From positions 3,224,001 to 3,288,000 of the forward strand of contig NZ_JABWRY020000001.1 in assembly GCF_014269205.2 (NCBI RefSeq): 64,000 bases of DNA, written 5' to 3'. Below, piece after piece: positions 48,942 to 64,000 of this stretch. A program made the position numbers and the translations under genes. The notes under the pieces are model-generated. The model was not told the DNA's origin, did not search any database, and saw only the letters and a list, made by a program, of their open reading frames with translations. Each line of letters starts with the position of its first letter. Position 1 is the first letter of the stretch. This DNA is from Pseudomonas kermanshahensis (GTDB taxonomy: Bacteria; Pseudomonadota; Gammaproteobacteria; Pseudomonadales; Pseudomonadaceae).

Positions 48942-51257
48942 TCACCGCCCCTTCTGGTAATACGGCTCGATGGCCTGCAGCCGCGGGTCGTCTGGTGCCA
49001 CCGCGCGCATCCGCTCGACATAGCCGTAAGCCTGCTCGCGCTCGCCAGCCAATGCATGCAGGTAGATCAACGAATACAGCAGGTCGACGTTTTCTGGTGC
49101 TTGCTCCAAGCCGCTACGCAACGCTTGCAGGGCTTCGTCACGGCGGTTCATGCGAGACAGCAGCAGGCCCTGGTTGTAGCGAATGCGCGTATTGCCCGGC
49201 AGCGCCACGGCGGCCCGCTCCATCCAGCCCAGCGCCTCGTCGGGATTGCCGCGCTCGACCAGCAGCAAAGCCAGCATGTAGGCCAGGTTGCCACGATCGG
49301 CAGCGGGCATCTTGTCCAGCGCCACCCCCTCGCGCAGCAGGCTTTCGGCATCATCCAGGCGTTGCGCGCTGCTGGCCAGGGTCACCAGGTTGACTCGCGC
49401 CGGGACGAAATACGGGTCCATGCGCAAGGCTTGGCGATACTGCTCCACAGCCTGCTCGTCGCGGCCCTGGCGCTGCATAAGCACCGCCAGGTTGAGCCGC
49501 CCCCCTGGCAGGTCCGCGTTACTGCGCAAGCGCTGCTCGTAATCGTCAAGCAACGTTTTGAACGACTCGCGGCTGGCTTCAGGTAACTGTGCTGCCGGGA
49601 CATCGGCCAAGGCCCGCACGGCTTCGTCGCGCACGGCCAAGGTGGGGTCTTCGAGCAGGGGCAGCAACGGTTTCAAACGCTGCTCGGGGGGCAGGCTGGT
49701 GAATCCGGCCACAGCGTAGGCGCGCACTAGCGGGTCTTTGTCCTGCAGTGCCCATTGCAAGTTGCTGGCCGCTGCGGTGCCCAAGTCTGCCAACTGGTCG
49801 GCGGCGGTGGCGCGGACGATGGCCGGGTTGCTCTTGTCCGCAAGCAGATAACCCAGGCGGCTCAGGGTAGTGCTCGGGTCCTCGCGCACGGCGTGGAAGT
49901 TCTGGCCGTAATGAGCGGGGCGCTTCGGTGACCCGAACCAACCTTCAATGGCCTTGGCCGCCCACTCGGGCTTGCGGTCTTGGTGGCAGGTGGTACAGGC
50001 ATCCGGGCCGTTGCCCTCTGCGGCAAGGTCCGGCCGGGGTATACGCAGGCTGTGATCGCGCCTGGGGTCGATCACCATGTAATTTTTGCTGGGCATGTGG
50101 CAATTGACGCACTGCGAACCCGGCGAGCCGGCCGCGTGGTGATGGTGCGCGGGGCTGTCATAGTCCTTGGCCTGCAAGCCAGCGAAACGTGCAGCATTGG
50201 GCTGGGTGTTATGGCATTGCAGGCAAAGCCCGTTACCTTCTATGCGCACCTTGGTGGTATGCGGGTTATGGCAATCGGTACAACCGACACCGGCGGCGAA
50301 CATCTTGCTCTGGGTAAATGAGCCGTACTCATAGACTTCGCCGTCGATCTGCCCATCGTCATGGTACAGGCCCGTGCGCAGCGTGGCGGGCAAGCTTTGG
50401 TCCAGCGGAGGGTGGCCCGGCATCTGGCCAGTGCCCAGGCTTTGTCGGCGGCTGTGGCAATAGGCGCATTGCTCTACCAAGCCCTTGCTGCCCAGCGCTT
50501 TGTAATCCACCGCAAGCCCTTGGGCAGGCGAAACGCCGGGGTGTTGGCTGGCCCAGTCAACATGGGCCTGGCCAGGGCCGTGGCAGCCCTGGCAACCCAC
50601 AGTCTTTTCCTGCCAGGTACTGGCAAAACTGTCGTGGGTATCATCGTAATGCTTGACCAGCCGGGTCGAGTGACAGTCAGCGCACATACCGTTCCAGTTC
50701 TGGTAACGGCCCGTCCAGTGCAGCGGGTCGTCAGGAGCGAAGCGTTGCCCAGGGTACAACGAGAACCAGCGTTGACCGCCAAGCGCCGCCGGCCGGCTGT
50801 CCCAGGCGAGGGTCAAGGCCTGCAAGCGGCCGCGCGACAGCGCCACCAGGTACTGCTGCAGCGGCTCGAAGCCAAAGGTATAGAGCACCTTGAAGTCAGC
50901 CGGTTTGCCATCTTCGCCCTCGATGTTGACGAAAAAACTGTCACCCTTGCGGTAAAAGTGGGCCTTCACCCCGTCTTCGTCATAGCGCACGTCATTGAAG
51001 TTGCCCAGCACGTTGGCCGGGCTGACATCGCGCAACGCCCAGGAATGGTCGGACTGCTGCCATTGTTTGGCCTGCTCGGTATGGCACGCCTGGCAACTGG
51101 TCGCTTCCGCATAGCCCTCACGTTCCTTGGCCTGGGCCGGCAACTGCCCCTGCTCGGTGGCTGCCTGACTCAGCCCAACGGTGCACAGTGGCAGTAGCAA
51201 GACACCTATTCCGATAACCGCCCTCACCCTCTGCACTGCCTGTGCAATACACCCCAT
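48942..51257 (-). CDS. Multiheme c-type cytochrome with HEAT and TPR repeats
   Basis: Exported protein of 771 residues (signal peptide 1-33, AVIGIGVLLLPLCTVGLSQA). Eight CXXCH sites: CQACH (~55), CADCH, CQGCH, CAYCH, CTDCH, CLQCH, CVNCH and CTTCH, all within the first ~440 residues. Then HEAT-like repeats (~480-570; NPAIVRATAADQLADLGTAA, LVRAYAVAGFTSLPPEQRL) and TPRs (~590-750). CVNCHM and C-terminal domain resemble the family of cytochromes that pair with nitrite/hydroxylamine-type electron carriers. GGAG lies 6 bp upstream. No partner oxidoreductase is adjacent; the neighbours are the MoxR/Bat genes. Confidence 0.88.
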   Translation of the reverse strand: MGCIAQAVQRVRAVIGIGVLLLPLCTVGLSQAATEQGQLPAQAKEREGYAEATSCQACHTEQAKQWQQSDHSWALRDVSPANVLGNFNDVRYDEDGVKAHFYRKGDSFFVNIEGEDGKPADFKVLYTFGFEPLQQYLVALSRGRLQALTLAWDSRPAALGGQRWFSLYPGQRFAPDDPLHWTGRYQNWNGMCADCHSTRLVKHYDDTHDSFASTWQEKTVGCQGCHGPGQAHVDWASQHPGVSPAQGLAVDYKALGSKGLVEQCAYCHSRRQSLGTGQMPGHPPLDQSLPATLRTGLYHDDGQIDGEVYEYGSFTQSKMFAAGVGCTDCHNPHTTKVRIEGNGLCLQCHNTQPNAARFAGLQAKDYDSPAHHHHAAGSPGSQCVNCHMPSKNYMVIDPRRDHSLRIPRPDLAAEGNGPDACTTCHQDRKPEWAAKAIEGWFGSPKRPAHYGQNFHAVREDPSTTLSRLGYLLADKSNPAIVRATAADQLADLGTAAASNLQWALQDKDPLVRAYAVAGFTSLPPEQRLKPLLPLLEDPTLAVRDEAVRALADVPAAQLPEASRESFKTLLDDYEQRLRSNADLPGGRLNLAVLMQRQGRDEQAVEQYRQALRMDPYFVPARVNLVTLASSAQRLDDAESLLREGVALDKMPAADRGNLAYMLALLLVERGNPDEALGWMERAAVALPGNTRIRYNQGLLLSRMNRRDEALQALRSGLEQAPENVDLLYSLIYLHALAGEREQAYGYVERMRAVAPDDPRLQAIEPYYQKGR

Positions 51258-52604: not shown

Positions 52605-53366
52605 ATGCTTTTGCCTGTTGTTGGACACCGCTACCTACCGTTTTTGTTGGCCTTGGCCAGCGTTTGCGCCCACGCCGAGCAAGAGCCGACCGCCGAAGAC
52701 CCGCAGTTGATCCGCATCCTGCTGGCAGCAGAGCTGGAAACCACCCTCTCCAGCCAGATGAGCGGCACACTGGGGGAGCTGAAAACCAGCTTCGGCGAGC
52801 ACGTGACCAAAGGCGCGACCTTGGCGCGCTTCAATTGCAACGAGGCCCAAGCCCGCGGCAAGGTCGCCGTGGCCGAGCTGGCCATGGCCCGGCAGAACCT
52901 GGAAGCCAAAAAGCAACTGCGCAAACTCGACGCCGTCGGCGATATCGAAGTGGCCGCAGCCAATACCGAAGTGCAGAAGGCTGATGGCGCCCGTGCCATG
53001 GGCGAAGCGCAAATGAGCTACTGCCAGGTACTGGCCCCCTTCTCGGGCCATGTGGCCAAGGTTTACGTCAAGCCATACCAGACCGTCAGCGCGGGTACGC
53101 CACTGTTCGACCTGGTCAGCGACGGCGCATTGAAGGTGCGCCTGAATGTGCCCTCCAGCCAGCTGAAAAGCCTAAGCCCCGGCCAGCCGCTGCAGGTCAG
53201 CGTGCATGAGACGGGCAAAACCTACCCGGCCAAGGTCAGTGTGATCAACTCAAGGGTCGATGCCGTGGCGCAGACAGTGGAACTTGAAGCGCGCTTCGAC
53301 CAGCGCTACCCCGAACTGATCGCCGGTATGAGCGGCACGGCGCGGTTCGACCATGACCGTGAATAG
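52605..53366 (+). CDS. Periplasmic adaptor (HlyD/RND type)
   Basis: Protein of 253 residues. Start 52605 has AAGGAG 7 bp upstream and a signal peptide (MLLPVVGHRYLPFLLALASVCAHA). Lipoyl half (SGTLGELKTSFGEHVTKGATL), coiled coil (~85-135), second lipoyl half (VLAPFSGHVAKVYVKPYQTV) and beta-barrel (LKVRLNVPSSQLKSLSPGQP). It is short and lacks the membrane-proximal domain. Overlaps the next gene by 14 bases. First of three genes that precede a giant adhesin; part of an export or surface system by context. Confidence 0.85.
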   Translation: MLLPVVGHRYLPFLLALASVCAHAEQEPTAEDPQLIRILLAAELETTLSSQMSGTLGELKTSFGEHVTKGATLARFNCNEAQARGKVAVAELAMARQNLEAKKQLRKLDAVGDIEVAAANTEVQKADGARAMGEAQMSYCQVLAPFSGHVAKVYVKPYQTVSAGTPLFDLVSDGALKVRLNVPSSQLKSLSPGQPLQVSVHETGKTYPAKVSVINSRVDAVAQTVELEARFDQRYPELIAGMSGTARFDHDRE

Positions 53367-54699
53367 ACCACTGCCCCACCCGCAGCTGTTGCTGCAACTG
53401 GACGCCCTGCGCGATAAAGCCATGGCCGCCGAAACGCTGGGCGCGCTGGCATTCAGCATGGCCAACGACCTGTACCCGCTACTGCCCTTCCACCAGTCGC
53501 TGGTGTTCGAGCAAGGCAACAGCGGCTTGGAGCTGCTGTGCGTGTCGGGCCTGGCGCGCCCCAGCGAAGACTCGCCCTACCTGGTCTGGCTCAGACGCGC
53601 CAGCCGTTGGTTGGCCGAGCGCTTGGTCGAGCCGCAGCCCGCCTGGTTGACCCAGGCCGACGCCGCGCCACCTGAAGACATCGCCGAGGGCTGGGCCGAG
53701 TGGTGGCCTACCGGCCTGTGGTGCATCCCCTTGCATGCCCCGACCGGCCATCGCCTTGGCCTGCTGGTATTGCTGCTGGAAGAAGCACCGCCGGCGGTGG
53801 TGCACCAGCAGCTGGATGGTTTGACGCGCACCTGGGCCTATTGCTGGCATGCGCTGACCCGGCGCCGGCGAATCGGCCGCTGGCGCCCCAGCCGCCGCCA
53901 GGTGCTGATCACCCTGCTGGTGGCCGCCGGACTGTTGCTGCTCCCAGTGCGGCAAACGGCGTTGGCACCGGCACAGATCGTGTCGCGCCAGGCACAGATC
54001 GTCAGTTCACCGATCGACGGCGTGATCGCCCAGGTACTGGTGCGCCCCAACCAGCCGGTGGAAGCCGACACCCCGCTGTTCACCCTCGACGAAACCACCC
54101 TGCGCAGCCGCGCCGAGGTACTCGGCAAGGAAGTCGCGGTGGCCGACGCCGAGCTGCTAGCCGCCAGCCAGCGTGCATTCGACAACCCGCAAAGCAAGAA
54201 CGAGCTGACCTTGCTGCAAGGCCGTGCCCAGCAACGTCGCGCCGAGCTGGCCGCGGTGCAAGCGCAGTTACGGCGTACCCAGGTGCTGGCACCACGGGCC
54301 GGGGTTGCTGTGTTCAGCGACCCCAACGACTGGCTCGGCAAGCCGGTATCGACCGGCGAGCGCATCATGCACGTGGCCGACCCGGCACAACCGGCCATGC
54401 AGATCCAGCTGGCCGTGGCCGATGCCATCGCCCTGGAGCCGGGCGCCGAGGTCACGCTGTTCCTCACCGCCTATCCGCTCAGCCCGCTCAAGGGCAAAAT
54501 CCTCGAAACCAGCTACCAGGCCAAGCCCAGTGATGACGGCGTGGTCGCCTACCGCCTGCTGGCCAGCATCGACGAACGCTCCGAGCATGCCCGCCTGGGC
54601 CTGCACGGCACCGCCAAACTGTACGGCGGCCGGGTAATGCTCGGTTATTACCTGCTGCGCCGGCCGCTGGCCACGGTGCGTGCCTGGAGTGGCTGGTGA
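53353..54699 (+). CDS. GAF-like/HlyD membrane-fusion protein
   Basis: Protein of 448 residues. N-terminal ~1-175 is a soluble domain resembling GAF (FHQSLVFEQGNSGLELLCVS, GLWCIPLHAPTGHRLGLLVL), then a membrane helix (~181-199, VLITLLVAAGLLLLPVR), then a HlyD-type periplasmic part with lipoyl halves (SPIDGVIAQVLVRPNQPVEA and VLAPRAGVAVFSDPNDWLGK), coiled coil (~255-305) and barrel. A cytoplasmic GAF on an adaptor is unusual and would let a cytoplasmic signal control transport. Its stop overlaps the next start (TGATG). Confidence 0.8.
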   Translation: MTVNRPLPHPQLLLQLDALRDKAMAAETLGALAFSMANDLYPLLPFHQSLVFEQGNSGLELLCVSGLARPSEDSPYLVWLRRASRWLAERLVEPQPAWLTQADAAPPEDIAEGWAEWWPTGLWCIPLHAPTGHRLGLLVLLLEEAPPAVVHQQLDGLTRTWAYCWHALTRRRRIGRWRPSRRQVLITLLVAAGLLLLPVRQTALAPAQIVSRQAQIVSSPIDGVIAQVLVRPNQPVEADTPLFTLDETTLRSRAEVLGKEVAVADAELLAASQRAFDNPQSKNELTLLQGRAQQRRAELAAVQAQLRRTQVLAPRAGVAVFSDPNDWLGKPVSTGERIMHVADPAQPAMQIQLAVADAIALEPGAEVTLFLTAYPLSPLKGKILETSYQAKPSDDGVVAYRLLASIDERSEHARLGLHGTAKLYGGRVMLGYYLLRRPLATVRAWSGW

Positions 54700-56789
54700 T
54701 GCTCGACCTGTCCGACCTGCCGCTGCCCCCGCTGCGCGAGGACCTGCGCCTGTGCGAGGCCGCCGACAGCCGTGAAGGGGAACCGGCATGGATGATCCAC
54801 GACACCGTGGTCAACCGTTTCTACCGGATTGGCTGGTTGGAGTTCGAGTGCCTGCTGCGCTGGGGCCAGACGCCGCGCCAGATCAGCGAACAAGTATCGC
54901 GGGACAGCGCGCTCAACCCCGATGTCGAGCAGGTGCTGGCGCTGCGCACGTTCCTCGAACACCACCACCTGCTGCGCCCCGGCCCCGAGCAATTGGCCAA
55001 ACTGCAGGCCGCGAGCGAGGCGCGCACCTGGTCGAGCTGGCGTTGGTGGTTGCACCACTACCTGTTCTTCCGCGTGCCGCTGCTGCGCCCGCAAGCCGGC
55101 CTGCAGCGCCTGGCGGTAGCGCTAGGCTGGCTGTTCCATCCGCTTACCGGCGTGCTGGTGATCGGCCTGACCCTGCTCGGGATCATCCTGGTGATGCAGC
55201 AGTGGGACGCCTTCACCCATGCAGTGGTCGAGTCGTTCTCCACCGAAGGCCTGTTCAGTTTTGCCCTGGCTCTGGTGGTCGCAAAAACCCTGCACGAGCT
55301 TGGCCACGCGCTGGTCGCCACACGCCTGGGCTTGCGCGTGGGGCACATGGGCGTGGCGTTTCTGGTGCTGTGGCCGATGCTCTACACCGACACCGGCGAA
55401 AGCTGGAAACTCAAGCGCGCCCACCAGCGCCTGGCCATCGCCTCGGCCGGCATCGTCACCGAATTATCCCTGGCAGGCCTGGCCACCCTCGGCTGGGCGC
55501 TGTGCGACGACGGCGCCCTGCGCAACGCGCTGCTGTACCTGGCGACCACCAGCTGGGTGCTGTCGCTGGCCCTCAACGCCAGTCCGTTCATGCGCTTCGA
55601 CGGCTACTTCATCCTCAGCGACCTGCTCGACTTCCCCAACCTGCACGAGCGCGCCTCGGCGCTGGCGCGGGTTGCCCTGCGGCGCAACCTGCTTGGGCTC
55701 AACGAGCCATGGCCCGAGCCATTCCCGGTAGGGCAACGCCGCCTGCTGGTGGCGTTCGCTTTTGCCACTTGGCTGTACCGCCTGGTGCTGTTCCTCGGCA
55801 TTGCCGTGGCGGTGTACCTGTTCTTCTTCAAACTGCTAGGGATCGTGCTGTTCATGGTCGAGTTGGCGTGGTTTATCGCGCTGCCGGTGAAACGTGAGCT
55901 GAGCCACTGGTGGCAACAGCGGGCACGCATCCCGGGTCAGCGCAAACGGCTGTTCTACCTAGGCGCAGGCCTTGTTGTACTGGCGCTGGCGGTGCCTTGG
56001 CACAGCCAGGTCGACGCCGTTGGCGTAGCCCGGGCCGAACACCAGTTGCGCGTGTACACGCCCTACCCTGCGCGGCTGAAAAGCTTGCATTCGCAAGGCC
56101 ACGTCAAGGCTGGCGACGTGCTGGCAGTGCTCGAAGAGCCAGACCTGGATTCGCGCATGCGCAGCAGCCAGGCCAGCGCCCGCAGCTATCAGGCGCGCCT
56201 TTCTGGGCTGCTGGCCGACCCCGCCGGGCTGACCGAGGACGCTGCCACCCAGCAACGCCTGAAGGTGCAGAACGAAGAAGCCCGCGCGGCACGCATCGAA
56301 ATCGCCCGCCTCAACCTGCAGGCGCCATTCGCCGGCACCTGGCTGGACCTGGACCCGGACTGGCGCCCTGGCCAGTGGCTCAACCGCCAGGAACCGCTGG
56401 GCATGCTGATCGACCCCAGTCACTGGCAGGTCGATGCCTACGTCGCCCAGGACCAGGTGCACCACCTGGCTGTGGGCAATGCCGTGAAATTTTACCCCGA
56501 AGGCCAGGCCACCGCGCTGCGCGGCAAAGTGCTGGCCATTGGCAGCACCCGCGCCGGGCAGTTGGCCCACCGCATGTTGTCTTCGCATTTCGGCGGCCCG
56601 GTGCCGACCAGCGGCCAGTCGCTGGTGCCCAGCAACGCGCTGTTCCAGGTACTGGTCGCGTTGGATGAGCCGTTGGCCAGCGTGCGCGAAACCCGCGGCA
56701 AGCTGCAGATCGAAGGGGAAAAACGCAGCCTCCTCGGTGAGCTGGGTAAATGGATTCTGGGAGTCGGGCTGCGCGAAAGCGGCTTCTGA
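54699..56789 (+). CDS. M50-type protease/HlyD fusion with PqqD-like N-terminus
   Basis: Membrane protein of 696 residues. N-terminal ~1-105 is a winged-helix-like domain resembling PqqD (WMIHDTVVNRFYRIGWLEFE, ISEQVSRDSALNPDVEQVL). Membrane region ~145-430 carries the zinc motif KTLHELGHALVATRLG and third ligand in NASPFMRFDGYFILSDLLD, both intact M50 (site-2 protease) motifs. After TM ~423-441 comes a HlyD periplasmic domain (lipoyl halves ~455-490 and ~540-590; coiled coil between). Proteins of this type occur with bacteriocin and RiPP systems; here the partner is a giant adhesin. It may cut or guide the adhesin. Confidence 0.85.
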   Translation: MLDLSDLPLPPLREDLRLCEAADSREGEPAWMIHDTVVNRFYRIGWLEFECLLRWGQTPRQISEQVSRDSALNPDVEQVLALRTFLEHHHLLRPGPEQLAKLQAASEARTWSSWRWWLHHYLFFRVPLLRPQAGLQRLAVALGWLFHPLTGVLVIGLTLLGIILVMQQWDAFTHAVVESFSTEGLFSFALALVVAKTLHELGHALVATRLGLRVGHMGVAFLVLWPMLYTDTGESWKLKRAHQRLAIASAGIVTELSLAGLATLGWALCDDGALRNALLYLATTSWVLSLALNASPFMRFDGYFILSDLLDFPNLHERASALARVALRRNLLGLNEPWPEPFPVGQRRLLVAFAFATWLYRLVLFLGIAVAVYLFFFKLLGIVLFMVELAWFIALPVKRELSHWWQQRARIPGQRKRLFYLGAGLVVLALAVPWHSQVDAVGVARAEHQLRVYTPYPARLKSLHSQGHVKAGDVLAVLEEPDLDSRMRSSQASARSYQARLSGLLADPAGLTEDAATQQRLKVQNEEARAARIEIARLNLQAPFAGTWLDLDPDWRPGQWLNRQEPLGMLIDPSHWQVDAYVAQDQVHHLAVGNAVKFYPEGQATALRGKVLAIGSTRAGQLAHRMLSSHFGGPVPTSGQSLVPSNALFQVLVALDEPLASVRETRGKLQIEGEKRSLLGELGKWILGVGLRESGF

Positions 56790-56884
56790 AGACCTTCCGG
56801 CGCCTCAGCCGGCACCCCGAAAAAACCGGACTAGGATTGATTTAGTTTCGGAAATGGCATCGTAACTTCTGGGCAGGATTGGAA

Positions 56885-59800
56885 ATGGACATCAAGAGCA
56901 GAGCCGGCTTCGCCATGGTTTCGCGCCCTCGGTCGCAGACAGTTGCCCTTGAGCAACGCATCCTCTTCGACGGCGCTGGCGCAGCGGCTGTCGACCAGCA
57001 GCATCACAGTGATGCAGGTACAGCAGAGGCCAAGGACACCCGCCACCCGGCCCCTACTGCCAGCGAGGCACAAACCACCACAGCGGCGCCCGCCCCCCGC
57101 AACCTGGTGGTCATCGATGCCCGGGTGGAAAACCGCGACCAGCTGGCAGCCAACCTGCCAACCGGTACCACCGCGCTGGTGGTGGACCCTGGCCAGGATG
57201 CCATCGCAGCCATCAGCAATGCCCTGGCGCAGTTGGGCAAGGTCGACTCGATCCAAGTGTTCTCGCACGGCGCGTCTGGCCAGTTCACCCTGGGCAACCA
57301 GGTATTCACCAGCCAAACCGTCGAGCAGCTGGGCGACCGCCTGAGCGCCTGGCGCGGTGAACTCAACGCGGGCGCGGACATCCAGTTGTATGGCTGCGAT
57401 GTAGGTGCCAGCAGTGCAGGCCAGGCGCTGGTGAACGAACTGGCGCGCTGGACCGGCGCTGACGTCGGCGCCTCCAGCAACGCCACCGGCAGCCAACTGG
57501 CCGGCGGCGACTGGCGCCTTGAGGTCAGCAATGGCGATGTTGACAAGACCATTGCCCTGGCAGCAGCCACCCTGAACGGCTTCCAAGGCCTGCTGGCCGA
57601 TGCCAGCCCGACCGCCAGCCTGAGCAGCGGCGGTGCCGAGGTGCAACTGGGCGAGCAATTCAACTTCACCGTCAGTTTCAGCAACCCGTCGACCCAGGAA
57701 GGCTATGCGCCGTTCCTCGATGTTTTCATACCGGCCACCGGGCGCGACGGCGACGATGGTGCCACCTTCGTCTCCGCCACCTACTTGGGCCAGGCGGTGA
57801 ACAGCTTCGTGATCACCTTCGATGCCAACGGCAATGCCACCCACCCGTTGGCCAAGGACGCCAGCGGCAATGCCCTGGTGATCAATGCCGCCAGCGTCGG
57901 CATGAAGCCCGGCGACCAGATGGTGGTGCTGCAACTGCCCTACGCCAGCGTCACCAACGGCCAGCCCACGATCGATGTGCAGATTACCGCACAGTTGAGC
58001 AACCTGGCCGACACCAGCTACTCCGACGGCGCGCCTAACCTCACCATCAATGCCCGCGCTGGTTTCGAGTACGGTAACGATTCGCTGAACAATCCGGCGC
58101 AGGACCCAAGCCGGGTAGAAAGCGCGCTGCACAGCTTCATCGTCACCCCGACCCTGCTCAAGGTCACGCAAACGGTCAACCTGCCAGAAGGCGAAACGGT
58201 AACCGGGCCGAACTTCACCCGTACCCAGACCGTGACCGTAACCCCGGCCCCCGGGCAAACGCTAAGCAATGTCACCGTCACCCAGACCGTGCCCGACCAG
58301 GTGCACGTCAGCGCCATCACGCCGGGGGCCGGTGGCACCCTGACGTCGGTCACCCTTCACGACGGCACGGTGCTGACCAACCCCCTGCTTATCGCTGCGG
58401 CATTGGCCAACCCCAACGCCTTCGTGGCCAGCTATGAGATCCATTACGACACCCTGAGCGCGGCCAGCGAAACCCAAGTCAGCTTCTATGTGCCGGAGAT
58501 CGACGCCAACGGCCGGCCAGTGATCGACCCGACCACCGGTAATCCGACCACCATCAACTTCGGCACCGCCAGCGTGACCGGTGGCTGGAACCCGCTCGAC
58601 CCACGCGACCGCCCCACCGACCCGGAGGGTTATCCGTTCACCGAGACCGGCAATGGCCAAGGCGTGACCTTCGTCGCCAAGTCGATCACGCTGCTCAAGC
58701 AGGTGGACCTGCAAAATGACGTGGGCACGCCCGGCCTCACACCCGGCGACACTTTGCGCTACACCTTGGATGTGGCCATTTCCGACTTCTTCGCCTTTGG
58801 CGAAAACATCCTCGAACAGGGCCAGTTCACCCTGACCGACCAGCTCGGCGACGGCCAAACGTTCGACCCGAGCAACCCACCTACGCTGATCATCCAGCAG
58901 CATGGTGGGTCCCAGGCCATTGCCTTGGTCTACACCCAGACGGTGAATGCCGACGGCAGCACCACGCTGGTCTTCGACATTGCCGAGTCCATTCGCCAGG
59001 CGGTTGCCGGCCCTGGCGTGGCGGCGCTGTTCGGCGACCTTTACGACGACACCCTACAGGAAGGTGCCACACGCCTGAGCATCGTCTACGACGCACTGGT
59101 CGACACCACCTACACCAGTGACCACCCACCCCACGACCAACTCAACGAAGGTGACAGCGTTGGTAACAACGCCACGGTGGATGCCACCGTGCTGCGCGAT
59201 GCGGTCAACCTGGGCGGGACCCAGACAGACGGGTCCAGTACCACCAGCACCATCGCAAGCTCCTCGGTCGATATCGAACTCACTCAGGTCAACGGCGGCA
59301 ACCCGCCGAGCAACGGCGAGCTGCGCCCGGGCGATGTGGTGACCTTCACCATCAGCTACGACTTGCTGGTGGCCGATTACGAGAACTTCAAACTCACGGC
59401 GTACCTGCCCTTGCCCTTGCTCAATGCCAGCGGCATCAGCTGGAGTGTCGGCAGCGGGATTGGCCAGTGGACGTTTGGCAGCGGTAATACCATTCTCGAC
59501 GTACCCGACAGCGTCACCACCGGCCCCGGCAACTCGATCGTGTTCGACTTCGGCAACTTCGTCTCCGATGGGCTCAATGGCGGTACCGTGCAGGTGCGCT
59601 TCACCATGGTGGTGGGCGACCAGCCATTTGCCGATCAGCGTGAACTCGACGTGCTGGCGCAGTCGAGCCAGACCACCACGGTCGACAAGACTGTGCTCAC
59701 CTCATCGGATGTGGCGGTGATCCAGTCGGTCGCTGAGCCGGTGCTGGACATCAAGCACGGCGTGGTGTCCAGCAGCAACGGCACAGTCACCGGCACCACC

Positions 59801-62800
59801 GGCAGCTGGGCCGCCCCCGGCAGCAGCGGTGTGCCGTTCAGCGGCAGCGTGACCAGCCTGGCGGCGGTGGACGGCAATGTCAGCGGCATCGACGGGGCCG
59901 ACAACCTGCGTCTGGCCACCGCCCTGAAAAACACCGGCGGCGGCGGTGCCTACGATGTCAGCACCAGCATCACCTTGCCCGCAGGCCTGTCGTTCGTCGG
60001 CGGCAGCCTGGGCGCGGCCAACCTGCAGATCTACCGCGGGGACGGCAGCGTGCTGGTGCAGGGCACCGACTACCGCGTCGACGGCAACGCCATTACCTTC
60101 CTCGACGCCAACGGCCAGGCCACCCTGCTGGCAGGCCGCGCCGGCACCGCCAGCGACCTGTCCGGGGCCAACGTGGTGGTGATCACCTACGACGTCAACG
60201 TGGACAATGCCATCCTCGCCTCCAGCACGCTGCAGAGCACTGCCGCGCTGACTTACTACGCCAGCGTCGATGGCGGCCAGGACTTCACCCCCACCGACCT
60301 GACTGAGGTCGCCAACCAGCAAGTCGCCGCGCCGACCATCAGCAAGACCTACAAGGACGGCAGCCTGACCGAGGACGACTCCAGCGCCGGGCACACCACG
60401 GGCAGCAACCTGGTGATTGGCGAAAGCATCACCTACGACATCGTCGTCACCCTGCCCGAGGGTTCGACGGGCAGCCTGCGCATCAATGACTTGATCCCCC
60501 CGGGCCTGCGGCTGGACCAACGGTTCAATGGCAACCTGGGCTATGAAATCATCACCAGCACCACAGCCAGTGCTACCCTCACGGCCGATTTCAACGGTGT
60601 GCTCAACGTCAACCCGGTGACCCTGGACGGCAGCGACGGCGCCGACCTGATGCTGGTGTTCGCCAGCGCCGGGGCCACGGCCGACAACATTACCGGCAAC
60701 AACAGCTTCGTCATCCGCCTGGTGCTGGTGGCCAGCAACGTGACCGGTAACCAGCAAGGCACCACGCTGAACAACGGCGCGCAGCTGGTGTACAGCGATC
60801 CGGATGGCGACACCCCCAACGGCACCACCGCCGTGGACCGCAACATCAACAGTGCCGAACAGCCCGGCGTGACCATCGTCGAGCCGACCCTCAGCGTCAC
60901 CCAGCAGATTACCTCGACCCCCTCGTTTGGTGGCTTCGACCAAGGCGATACCGTCACCTTCACCATCACCGTGGCCAACAATTCGGGCACCGACGCGTTC
61001 GACATCAGCCTGCTGGACGTGCTGCCGACTGAAATCGATAACCTGGTGATCAGTGGCACCATCCAGTACAGCGGCGGCGCCACTAACAACGGCGGCGTTG
61101 ATTTCGTCATCCTCAACGGCCAGTTGGTGACCGCTAATGGCGCCAACATCGACATCGCTAACGGCGGGAGCATCGTCATCACCCTGACCGGCGTGGTCAA
61201 TGCCACGGCCGCAGGCGAGGCAGCGATCGCCAACAACGTCGTGGTGCGCTGGAGCAGCCTGGACGGCAGCAGCAACAGCACCGATACCGTCAATGGCGAG
61301 CGCAGCGGCGACGATGGCCTGCTCAATTCAGGCGTGCTCAACGATTACCGGGTGCTGAGTGCCTTGCTGATCCCGGTCACCAACGGCATCCAGGTGTCCC
61401 GCGTCGGCGGCGTCACCGACACGCCCCCGGCCACCAACGGCAGCGGCACCATCGACACCAGCGGCCTGTTGGAAACCGTGGTAGTCGGCGAAATCGTCCG
61501 TTACCGCGTGGCCGTGCTGGTACCGACCGGCGACAACCCCAATTACCAGATCCGCATCGAGCTGGCCGCCGGCCTGGAGTTCATCACCGCCGACCTCAAC
61601 AACATCCTGATCGCCATGGTGTCGAGCCAGCTAGGCGGCTTGACCACCGACGCCACCGACCTGGTGCTCGGCGACGGCAATTCGCTGTATATGACCGGCA
61701 ACCAGAACAGCGATGTGGCCTTGCCGATCCACCCCGATCTGGGCGGCGTGGTGCCCTCGGGTGTTTTCGATGGTGACAATGGCCGGCTGCAGATCACGAC
61801 CAACCAAGACGGCAGCCAGACCATCACCTTCAATCTTGGCAACGTGACCAATGGCGAGGCCAATGACAGCGATATCGAAGGCGTGATCCTCGAGTTCAAC
61901 GTGCGCGTCAACAACGTGACCGGCAACCAGGCCAACACCCAGCTGGGCATGACAGTGTTCGAACACGTGGGCCCGGGCGATGGCGTTGACCGCGGCCGCA
62001 GCGATACGGTGTTCGAGCGCGTGGTGGAGCCCAGCTTCACCAGCATGCAGAAGTCGGTCATCGACGTCGCCCCGGGCGCCGGCACGACCACGGCCACCGT
62101 CTCGGTGAGTTTCACCCAGGATGGCGGCGCGCCCGCCTACAACACCCACCTGACCGACCAGTTCCCCAATGGCAGCAACTACCAGGTGCAAAGCATCCTG
62201 CTCAATGGCGTGGCGCTGGACCTGGGTAACCTGCCCAGCGGCATCAGCTTCAGCGATGGCAGCGGTATCGTCATGGACTTCGCACGGCTTGCGCCCAACG
62301 ACGCGATCCAGGTGATCTACACCGTCACTCTACCCAACGTGACCATCGCCGACGACGCCGCCAGTTCCGCCGTGCTCACCTGGACCAGCCTGCCCACCGA
62401 CTTTGAAACCAACGGGTGGGGCGGTTCGCTGCCCGCGGGTGCTGGCGCTGCCGACGGCGAGCGCACCGGCCAGGACGGCGCAACCGGCCTGAACAACTAC
62501 ATCCTCAGCGATGGCGCCGGCATGGGCGTGATCCAGGGCACGCTGTGGGACGATACCCGCAGCGCTACGGACAACGTCAGCCCGGACGGGCCCGGGCTGG
62601 ACGGCATCGGCGTCACCCTGACCTGGGCCGGTGACGACGGTCAGTTCGGCACCGCGGACGACCGCACGTTCAACACCGTTACCGCCAATGGCGGCCTCTA
62701 CCAGTTCGCCCTGCTGCCCTCCGGCAGCTACCTGATCGCGGTGGCACAAGACCACCAAGTCAGCACCAACAACACCTTCCGGGTGCGTATCGACACCGAC

Positions 62801-64000
62801 ACGGGCGCTGCGGCTACAGGCCTGGGCAGCATCAACCTGGCACTCGGCGAAGGCACAACCGGCACCGCCGACGCCGGCTACGTGCATGTGAACGAGGCGC
62901 CGGTCAATACGGTGTCCGACCAGCACGGCCAGGAAGACACGGTATTGCACATCGGTGGCCTGGCCATCAGTGACGTGGACGTCAACGCCGGCACTGCCGA
63001 CGGCGTCATGACCATTACCCTGACCGTGGTACACGGGGTCATCTGGCAAACCGCCACCCCGCCGGAGGCCACAGCTACACCTCCTGCCGGCGTTGGACGC
63101 AGCCTGGTCCTTACCGGCACCTTGGCCGAACTGAACGTGTTGCTGAGCCAGCTGTATTACAAAGGCGACCAGGACTTCAACACCTTCCGCGACTCGGAAA
63201 CCCTGACCATGGTCACCAATGACCAGGGCAATTTCGGCGACGCACCGGTCAACGGCGACGGCGTGCCCGGGCAGAACCCGGTCGATGCGCTGACCGACAC
63301 CGACGTGATGAACATCATCATCGACCCGGTCAACGATGCCCCGATCGCCAACGCCGACCTGGCCATCGCCGTGGAAGCCGGTGGCTTCAACAACGCCGAC
63401 CCGGGCGTGAACCCCACCGGCAACGTGCTGGCCAACGACACCGATGTCGATATTCAGACCAACAATGACGTGCTTACCGTCACCCGCATCGCCAACAACA
63501 CCACCCCCGGTGGAGTCGCAGTGGCCGCCAATGGGGTCACGACCTTGCAAGGGCTGTACGGCACCTTGTCGATCACCGCCAGCGGCGGTTTCCAGTACAT
63601 CGTCGACAACGACAACCCTGAGGTGCAGGCACTGCGCACCGCCGGCAACTTCATCAGTGATTTCTTCGGCTATGACATCGTCGACATCGGCGGTTTGACC
63701 AGCAGCTCGGTGCTGCAGATCAATATCCATGGCGCCAACGACACCCCGGTGGCCCATGGCGATGTTGGCACCGCCATCGAAGCCGGAGGCACCAACAACG
63801 GCACCACGGGGCAGGATGCCACGGGCAATGTGCTGGACAACGACACCGACGTCGACTCAGTGGCCTTGGGCGAGACCAAGCAGGTCAGCGCGGTGCGCTT
63901 CGATGGGCTGGGCGGCGGCCGGATCATTCCGGTGGTCAGCGGCCAATCGAGCAGCGTGCTGGCCGACTTCGGCAGCTTGACCATCAACGCCGACGGCAGC
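56885..64000 (+). CDS. Giant DUF4347 adhesin (3' end outside window)
   Basis: Open frame of at least 2372 codons, no stop before the window edge; ATG 56885 has AGGA about 6 bp upstream. Layout: short basic head with the LEQRILFDGAGAAA motif (residues 21-34) typical of DUF4347 proteins; DUF4347 domain ~72-235 with His128 in VFSHGASGQF and Cys171 in QLYGCDVGAS; a long Asp/Asn/Thr/Gly-rich region of DUF11-like beta-sandwich repeats (~240-1870; for example QGDTVTFTITVANNSGTDAF near 1350); an SdrD_B-like module ~1880-1995 (DGIGVTLTWAGDDGQFGTAD); then cadherin/VCBS-like repeats from ~2000 (NEAPVNTV, NDAPIANA, NDTPVAHG). No ordinary signal peptide, so export is probably of type I. Neighbouring adaptors suggest a dedicated route. 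Confidence 0.9.
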   Translation, partial: MDIKSRAGFAMVSRPRSQTVALEQRILFDGAGAAAVDQQHHSDAGTAEAKDTRHPAPTASEAQTTTAAPAPRNLVVIDARVENRDQLAANLPTGTTALVVDPGQDAIAAISNALAQLGKVDSIQVFSHGASGQFTLGNQVFTSQTVEQLGDRLSAWRGELNAGADIQLYGCDVGASSAGQALVNELARWTGADVGASSNATGSQLAGGDWRLEVSNGDVDKTIALAAATLNGFQGLLADASPTASLSSGGAEVQLGEQFNFTVSFSNPSTQEGYAPFLDVFIPATGRDGDDGATFVSATYLGQAVNSFVITFDANGNATHPLAKDASGNALVINAASVGMKPGDQMVVLQLPYASVTNGQPTIDVQITAQLSNLADTSYSDGAPNLTINARAGFEYGNDSLNNPAQDPSRVESALHSFIVTPTLLKVTQTVNLPEGETVTGPNFTRTQTVTVTPAPGQTLSNVTVTQTVPDQVHVSAITPGAGGTLTSVTLHDGTVLTNPLLIAAALANPNAFVASYEIHYDTLSAASETQVSFYVPEIDANGRPVIDPTTGNPTTINFGTASVTGGWNPLDPRDRPTDPEGYPFTETGNGQGVTFVAKSITLLKQVDLQNDVGTPGLTPGDTLRYTLDVAISDFFAFGENILEQGQFTLTDQLGDGQTFDPSNPPTLIIQQHGGSQAIALVYTQTVNADGSTTLVFDIAESIRQAVAGPGVAALFGDLYDDTLQEGATRLSIVYDALVDTTYTSDHPPHDQLNEGDSVGNNATVDATVLRDAVNLGGTQTDGSSTTSTIASSSVDIELTQVNGGNPPSNGELRPGDVVTFTISYDLLVADYENFKLTAYLPLPLLNASGISWSVGSGIGQWTFGSGNTILDVPDSVTTGPGNSIVFDFGNFVSDGLNGGTVQVRFTMVVGDQPFADQRELDVLAQSSQTTTVDKTVLTSSDVAVIQSVAEPVLDIKHGVVSSSNGTVTGTTGSWAAPGSSGVPFSGSVTSLAAVDGNVSGIDGADNLRLATALKNTGGGGAYDVSTSITLPAGLSFVGGSLGAANLQIYRGDGSVLVQGTDYRVDGNAITFLDANGQATLLAGRAGTASDLSGANVVVITYDVNVDNAILASSTLQSTAALTYYASVDGGQDFTPTDLTEVANQQVAAPTISKTYKDGSLTEDDSSAGHTTGSNLVIGESITYDIVVTLPEGSTGSLRINDLIPPGLRLDQRFNGNLGYEIITSTTASATLTADFNGVLNVNPVTLDGSDGADLMLVFASAGATADNITGNNSFVIRLVLVASNVTGNQQGTTLNNGAQLVYSDPDGDTPNGTTAVDRNINSAEQPGVTIVEPTLSVTQQITSTPSFGGFDQGDTVTFTITVANNSGTDAFDISLLDVLPTEIDNLVISGTIQYSGGATNNGGVDFVILNGQLVTANGANIDIANGGSIVITLTGVVNATAAGEAAIANNVVVRWSSLDGSSNSTDTVNGERSGDDGLLNSGVLNDYRVLSALLIPVTNGIQVSRVGGVTDTPPATNGSGTIDTSGLLETVVVGEIVRYRVAVLVPTGDNPNYQIRIELAAGLEFITADLNNILIAMVSSQLGGLTTDATDLVLGDGNSLYMTGNQNSDVALPIHPDLGGVVPSGVFDGDNGRLQITTNQDGSQTITFNLGNVTNGEANDSDIEGVILEFNVRVNNVTGNQANTQLGMTVFEHVGPGDGVDRGRSDTVFERVVEPSFTSMQKSVIDVAPGAGTTTATVSVSFTQDGGAPAYNTHLTDQFPNGSNYQVQSILLNGVALDLGNLPSGISFSDGSGIVMDFARLAPNDAIQVIYTVTLPNVTIADDAASSAVLTWTSLPTDFETNGWGGSLPAGAGAADGERTGQDGATGLNNYILSDGAGMGVIQGTLWDDTRSATDNVSPDGPGLDGIGVTLTWAGDDGQFGTADDRTFNTVTANGGLYQFALLPSGSYLIAVAQDHQVSTNNTFRVRIDTDTGAAATGLGSINLALGEGTTGTADAGYVHVNEAPVNTVSDQHGQEDTVLHIGGLAISDVDVNAGTADGVMTITLTVVHGVIWQTATPPEATATPPAGVGRSLVLTGTLAELNVLLSQLYYKGDQDFNTFRDSETLTMVTNDQGNFGDAPVNGDGVPGQNPVDALTDTDVMNIIIDPVNDAPIANADLAIAVEAGGFNNADPGVNPTGNVLANDTDVDIQTNNDVLTVTRIANNTTPGGVAVAANGVTTLQGLYGTLSITASGGFQYIVDNDNPEVQALRTAGNFISDFFGYDIVDIGGLTSSSVLQINIHGANDTPVAHGDVGTAIEAGGTNNGTTGQDATGNVLDNDTDVDSVALGETKQVSAVRFDGLGGGRIIPVVSGQSSSVLADFGSLTINADGS

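Follow-up and report, generated by a model that had tools for sequence, protein, structure and literature searches.

A five-gene adaptor and protease module without an adjacent ABC ATPase is linked to giant adhesins that share an N-terminal motif

Introduction

In the LapA/LapBCE system, which operates with LapD and LapG, a giant repeat adhesin is accompanied by an HlyD-type adaptor and TolC. We analysed a stretch of 64,000 nucleotides of Pseudomonas kermanshahensis (contig NZ_JABWRY020000001.1, positions 3,224,001 to 3,288,000; hereafter the window), part of a 6.15 Mb genome, at the end of which a giant adhesin is likewise encoded next to HlyD-type adaptors, with a TolC gene just beyond. Unlike the Lap system, this locus has no adjacent ABC ATPase; it has three adaptors, one of them fused to an M50 intramembrane protease (M50-HlyD), and its adhesin bears an N-terminal LExR tag.

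A locus encoding SecA_DEAD, Peptidase_M50-HlyD, GAF-HlyD and HlyD proteins was described by Kamneva, Poudel and Ward in 2015 (PMC4452313), who suggested that SecA supplies the ATPase and the M50 protein the membrane pore, and called the broader role of the locus 'completely unknown'. It is the sole description of a related locus that we recognised in the literature searched, which left most subscription papers and all preprints outside. The published locus has homologous M50-HlyD and GAF-HlyD genes, a further HlyD adaptor, no ABC gene and, in some cases, an OEP gene; the passages that describe it name no cargo or tags. It differs from the class to which the window belongs, where a SecA-like gene is lacking and TolC and a giant protein are often adjacent. 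The window system is thus a SecA-less, often TolC-bearing variant of the published locus, and what is new here is the cargo and its tags. On balance, we consider that the three adaptors, the adhesin and TolC probably act together as a system devoted to the secretion and maturation of giant adhesins.

Results

Composition of the locus

The original prediction had placed an adaptor, a GAF-HlyD adaptor, an M50/HlyD fusion and a giant DUF4347 adhesin in this order, with overlaps between the first three genes. Open frames and domain searches confirmed all four, and their coordinates give overlaps of 14 bases (genes 1 and 2) and 4 bases (genes 2 and 3). The features are as follows.

52605..53366, + strand: resistance-nodulation-division (RND)-type HlyD periplasmic adaptor (TIGR01730, 125 bits against a cut-off of 94.9; HlyD_3, HlyD_D23)
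53353..54699, + strand: HlyD adaptor with a GAF-type domain at its N-terminus, one membrane stretch and a periplasmic HlyD part (HlyD_3, HlyD_D23)
54696..56789, + strand: fusion of a PqqD/RRE-like domain, an M50 intramembrane protease and an HlyD adaptor (Peptidase_M50, HlyD_3)
54720..54980, + strand: predicted RRE/PqqD-like domain (fusion residues 9-95)
55293..55307, + strand: HELGH zinc motif of the M50 protease (fusion residues 200-204)
56885..64000, + strand, continuing past the window to 71665: giant adhesin (DUF4347, Cadherin_4, VCBS)
56948..56977, + strand: N-terminal LExR motif of the adhesin, LEQRILFDGA (proposed leader tag)
57104..57601, + strand: DUF4347 domain of the adhesin (His and Cys invariant in 33 aligned sequences)
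71662-73212, beyond the window: TolC/OEP gene directly after the adhesin

The RND-type adaptor, whose N-terminus looks signal-peptide-like by eye, starts at ATG 52605, with GTG 52581 also in frame, and ends at 53366. The adhesin starts at TTG 56879 or ATG 56885; its first 250 residues contain no hydrophobic stretch, and beyond the window its frame is broken between about 67.9 and 68.4 kb. The break sits between two near-identical repeat copies and represents either a frameshift or an assembly error. Upstream of the module, a 771-aa protein with cytochrome c and TPR domains is encoded on the minus strand (48942-51257).

The module is linked to giant frames across families

With the window protein as query, an M50-HlyD match at 1e-20 was found in 85 of 397 sampled proteobacterial genomes, at most two candidates being scored per genome. 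The resulting 120 loci (the window and 119 other matches) were divided by score into a window-like class of 95 loci from 69 genomes and 26 families, and a distant class of 25 loci from 24 genomes and 15 families. Sixty window-like loci had flanks of 6 kb or more on either side; of these, 56 had a GAF-HlyD gene, 53 an RND adaptor, 35 TolC and 50 a giant frame, while a T1SS (type I secretion system)-like ABC gene scoring above 600 bits was present at one. The corresponding numbers for all 95 loci are 85, 79, 48, 58 and 4. 'Giant' here is a rule of length (at least 700 aa) and composition, which kept some unrelated or antisense frames in the linkage and C-terminal counts, and the co-occurrence tests are uncorrected for kinship. 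A set of named loci behaved similarly: 45 of the best 80 of 592 had such flanks, with GAF-HlyD at 44, an RND adaptor at 38, TolC at 37 and a giant at 42. Control regions of 20 kb held a giant frame in 0 of 7 cases.

The survey proposed in the original prediction therefore upheld the association: linkage of the module to giant adhesin-like frames is above chance, and since the module genes usually adjoin giants, they are not generally found without the adhesin. The unit is a widespread five-gene module and is not peculiar to the window genome. In annotated examples from Escherichia coli, Burkholderia anthina and two Azospirillum strains, the genes lie on plasmids in the plain order giant, TolC, RND adaptor, HlyD and M50-HlyD; A. 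brasilense Sp7 carries the operon on its plasmid. A near-identical M50-HlyD gene occurs in 24 of 5,426 E. coli genomes.

The proposed cargo carries an N-terminal and a C-terminal motif

The giants have in common an N-terminal motif LExR..[FLYM][DS], mostly resembling LEPRMLFDGA and often following a basic stretch. Among DUF4347 proteins with a full N-terminus (two truncated ones were excluded), it was found in 60 of 63 from genomes with M50-HlyD versus 0 of 15 from genomes without. This tally assigns L167, from a genome without an M50-HlyD match (G050), to the module-less group, the earlier values being 60/64 and 0/14; within the group of 15, locus L279 supplies three rows and L278 is possibly a fragment. 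The three that lack it although their genomes have the module are L164, L192 and L264; the DUF4347 match of the last is weak. In families f47, f59 and f63, where both kinds of genome occur, the tag was present with the module and absent without it. The background, run with a slightly wider motif over the first 170 residues, amounted to 26 hits in 3,741 other frames and 7 in 1,476 pieces from the interior of giants. Where the contig had no M50 match, the tag was still seen in 18 of 20 DUF4347 loci, which suggests leader recognition in trans, a suggestion weakened by the draft state of the contigs.

The tag resembles the LEPR-XLL model of NCBI (NF012209) in its place at the N-terminus of giant proteins and in its LExR core; the window motif scores 12.8 bits, below the cut-off of 17, and the window class has FDGA where the sister (distant) class mostly has LLSAD. 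LEPR-XLL matched in 57 of the 397 genomes, of which 52 also have M50-HlyD. Every one of the 68 matches in frames of at least 800 aa came from an M50-HlyD genome, and 5 of 14 in shorter frames came from genomes without it. Among genomes with a distant-class locus, the model exceeded its cut-off in 23 of 24, the sequence mostly reading LEPRxLLSAD. In a LEPR/M50 proximity comparison, which used 44 of 82 LEPR matches and 63 of 120 M50 matches, 25 of the 44 lay within 6 kb. Eight plasmid loci outside the motif definition served as a check, and the tag was found in four annotated giants (E. coli, B. anthina and both Azospirillum strains) and in a frame of Cupriavidus metallidurans CH34. A profile of the window-type N-terminus searched against the PDB returned nothing meaningful.

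At the other end, window-like giants carry [FL]xxQ[LIVF] about 28 residues before the C-terminus in 74 of 96 cases, compared with 321 of 3,745 other C-termini and 231 of 4,688 internal pieces; in the window adhesin it reads GFRAQLREAAQRR (71609-71647). Some of the 22 misses are unrelated or antisense frames or our own broken frame, and some are near variants. The motif occurred in 17 of 22 complete tagged frames, one of these (our own broken frame) by chance, in 3 of 15 distant-class giants, and in 0 of 12 DUF4347 frames from module-less genomes. Because both motifs are common to the cargo, leader recognition and trimming is the most probable function of the fusion's PqqD-like/M50 part.

The M50-HlyD fusion has a predicted leader-binding domain

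Peptidase_M50, HlyD_3 and the HELGH motif lie in one protein, as had been predicted. The window fusion has both marks of an M50 site-2 protease, HExxH and a second-motif Asp; HExxH and D302 are invariant in 55 aligned sequences, and HELGH is also invariant in an alignment of 21. The PqqD-like domain suggested earlier found no Pfam match in the window protein and one among 55 homologues (E 0.0082), and a sister-class profile matched PqqD at E 0.021. It was recovered by structure: in the AlphaFold model (mean pLDDT, the predicted local distance difference test, 87.5) residues 9-95 form a three-strand, three-helix winged fold matching leader-binding domains of ribosomally synthesized and post-translationally modified peptide (RiPP) systems, namely the lasso B1 proteins 6jx3, 5v1u and 5v1v and PqqD 3g2b. 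The model thus supports a real RRE/PqqD-like domain, a predicted leader binder, which is placed before the membrane helices and therefore presumably cytoplasmic. It differs from its RiPP counterparts in being fused to a protease-adaptor and in adjoining giant proteins rather than small peptides. The 50 listed rows of the structure search were dominated by HlyD-type and biotin-carrier chains, and the M50 membrane part was scarcely represented.

Two curated families share the M50 protease type. The daptide protease NF041824 matches over fusion residues 34-396 but at 162.6 bits, below the 300 required, and the fusion has an extra HlyD part; YydH/LiaK (NF058609) reaches 31.5 bits of the 225 required. 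Among the matches listed, the nearest relatives of the M50-HlyD protein are 92% identical, the named ones being Pseudomonas. Also among the matches listed, other same-genus proteins are about 37-38% alike and three genomes of another genus in the family hold copies at 66-67%, a difference that hints at horizontal transfer of the gene (54696-56789). A scan of viral contigs gave a single locus, an IMG/VR contig with a relative at 41% identity, which may be viral or host DNA.

The GAF-HlyD adaptor has a single hydrophobic stretch (residues 184-202). Its proposed GAF domain had no Pfam match in the window protein (53353-54699) and was found by Pfam in 9 of 40 aligned homologues. M50-HlyD, GAF-HlyD and HlyD thus occur together in the window as in the 2015 locus, with GAF seen by Pfam in homologues only. 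Control or release of the adhesin might be exerted through the GAF or the M50 domain.

A sister class encodes a SecA-like ATPase, and the window class encodes no recognisable motor

In the distant class, a SecA-like protein adjoins or lies near the M50 gene in 19 of 25 loci; complete copies are about 600-730 aa long, and all three proteins tested had SecA_DEAD, SecA_PP_bind and P-loop_SecA domains. Loci of this type are the ones reported by Kamneva, Poudel and Ward in PMC4452313. No such gene was found at the 95 window-like loci. The window genome has one full and one weak SecA match, both far from the window.

The locus had been described as having no visible T1SS, with a search downstream of 64000 for an ABC ATPase or TolC as the check. 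The ABC part of this claim held: no LapB-like ABC frame was found at E 1e-5 in 52000-74000. The TolC part did not, since the gene at 71662-73212 supplies the half of a T1SS-like conduit that spans the outer membrane; HlyD-type adaptors and a TolC-family channel, as for a T1SS, are both present. An ordinary T1SS was rejected, there being no ABC gene with the module in 52000-74000 and a T1SS-like one above 600 bits near only 4 of 95 loci.

We also looked at ABC genes elsewhere in the genomes, testing 47 of the 69 window-type ones for the LapB family. A LapB-like ABC was over the cut-off in 28 of the 47. Twelve had no LssB match at 1e-120, and six of the twelve also lacked LapB, PrtD and HlyB families over the cut-off, although they do hold other ABC transporters. 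These six suggest that an ABC of the LapB, PrtD or HlyB family is not obligatory for the module. The idea of a further motor gene conserved in the window class was likewise rejected, the neighbour clusters containing no recognisable recurrent ATPase family; the most widespread cluster resembles sensor-kinase parts (by eye, one sequence).

DUF4347 is not the sole mark of the cargo

A domain search confirmed the giant adhesin with DUF4347 (57104-57601). Per genome, DUF4347 was found in 68 of 85 with M50-HlyD versus 18 of 312 without. As the sole cargo mark it was rejected, because five operon-inserted giants without a DUF4347 match bear the N-terminal motif (L050, L226, L231, L239, L257) and because the domain also occurs without the module. 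Three of 13 DUF4347 loci in module-less genomes (L275, L279, L280) adjoin a 770-795 aa T1SS-like ABC and an HlyD-like gene; DUF4347 can therefore accompany a different exporter. The domain may be an enzyme. Support for a clan CD-like peptidase was limited to the invariant His and Cys, and a profile search of the PDB gave no such match. The PDB match to DUF4347, 9qpe, stems from a paper on the type VI secretion system (T6SS), and PA0256, a T6SS effector candidate of Pseudomonas aeruginosa, is reported to contain the domain (PMC8262886), so it is not adhesin-specific.

Discussion

The dedicated system that we favour could operate as follows. The adhesin would be made without a classical signal peptide. 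In the cytoplasm, the RRE/PqqD-like domain of M50-HlyD would bind its LExR-FDGA leader and bring the adhesin to an inner-membrane platform of M50-HlyD and GAF-HlyD. This platform, the RND-type adaptor and TolC would form a tripartite conduit, through which the adhesin presumably passes; the M50 site would trim or release the leader, a step that the GAF domain may gate, and the C-terminal FxxQL-type motif would act as a second tag used in the window class. The different, controlled route of export or release first proposed is supported in part, by the lack of an ABC gene at the module, the protease-adaptor fusion, the PqqD-like domain and the adhesin linkage, with the correction that a TolC gene is present. 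A fuller version of this scheme, a distinct pathway in which the RRE reads the LExR leader, M50 trims and TolC provides the exit, with a SecA-driven branch and a window branch that has the FxxQL tag but no dedicated ATPase, together reaching about one fifth of sampled proteobacterial genomes, is offered tentatively.

Several observations weigh against such a system. PqqD is weak by sequence, TolC was found at only 35 of the 60 well-flanked window-like loci, and no recurrent extra gene or motor emerged from neighbour clustering in the window class; housekeeping SecA, proton-motive force or a borrowed ABC are therefore possible energy sources. The long frames at the modules of Caballeronia sp. 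NK8 and Indioceanicola profundi lack the tag, and a plasmid module of Magnetospirillum gryphiswaldense (L331:14451-15929) adjoins a 492-aa ELWxxDGT repeat protein, also untagged. Two LapB-like ABC genes over the cut-off lie elsewhere in the window genome. The C-terminal piece of the adhesin exceeds the cut-off of the BapA/Bap/LapF family NF045619 (311 bits against 180), a family presumably exported by T1SSs, though the best stretch covers profile positions 96-203 of 458 and is matched seven times, and hence reflects mainly repeats. Finally, a few M50-HlyD genes (L065, L068, L114, L132, L134) have neither adaptors nor a giant in the stretch seen. Several of these partnerless genes are second copies in their genome.

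Some of these points would fit a module devoted to processing or retention, with an ABC-type T1SS encoded elsewhere exporting the adhesin and the M50, GAF and HlyD proteins holding, trimming or releasing it at the envelope; LapD and LapG act on LapA in a comparable hold/release role. The two LapB-like genes of the window genome, the LapB-like genes in 28 of 47 window-type genomes, the BapA/Bap/LapF score and the T1SS-like ABC genes near 4 of 95 loci speak for it. We nevertheless regard it as rather doubtful: half of the 12 genomes without an LssB match are also without PrtD and HlyB over the cut-off, the module brings three adaptors, in many cases together with a TolC, and the sister class encodes a SecA-like ATPase of its own. 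That ATPase, with the full SecA match in the window genome, would agree with general Sec export by housekeeping SecA, the module acting past the inner membrane in periplasmic trimming and as an outer-membrane conduit; but no hydrophobic stretch occurs within the first 250 residues of the adhesin and the RRE-like domain is presumably cytoplasmic, which makes this route unlikely. A reading in which the genes are neighbours by coincidence and form an efflux or sensing system unrelated to the adhesin draws on the few partnerless M50-HlyD genes and is very improbable given linkage across 26 families and the tag association, which in f47, f59 and f63 follows the module; chance neighbourhood was rejected on the linkage and the tag together.

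If the dedicated secretion and maturation system is real, three orphans would gain a candidate function, namely the LEPR-XLL motif, the SecA locus of 2015 and the M50-HlyD fusion, and the system would suggest an exit route for giant adhesins that have neither a signal peptide nor an adjacent ABC pump. It would also provide a simple leader motif for cargo prediction, and would tie RiPP-style leader recognition to the secretion of very large proteins.

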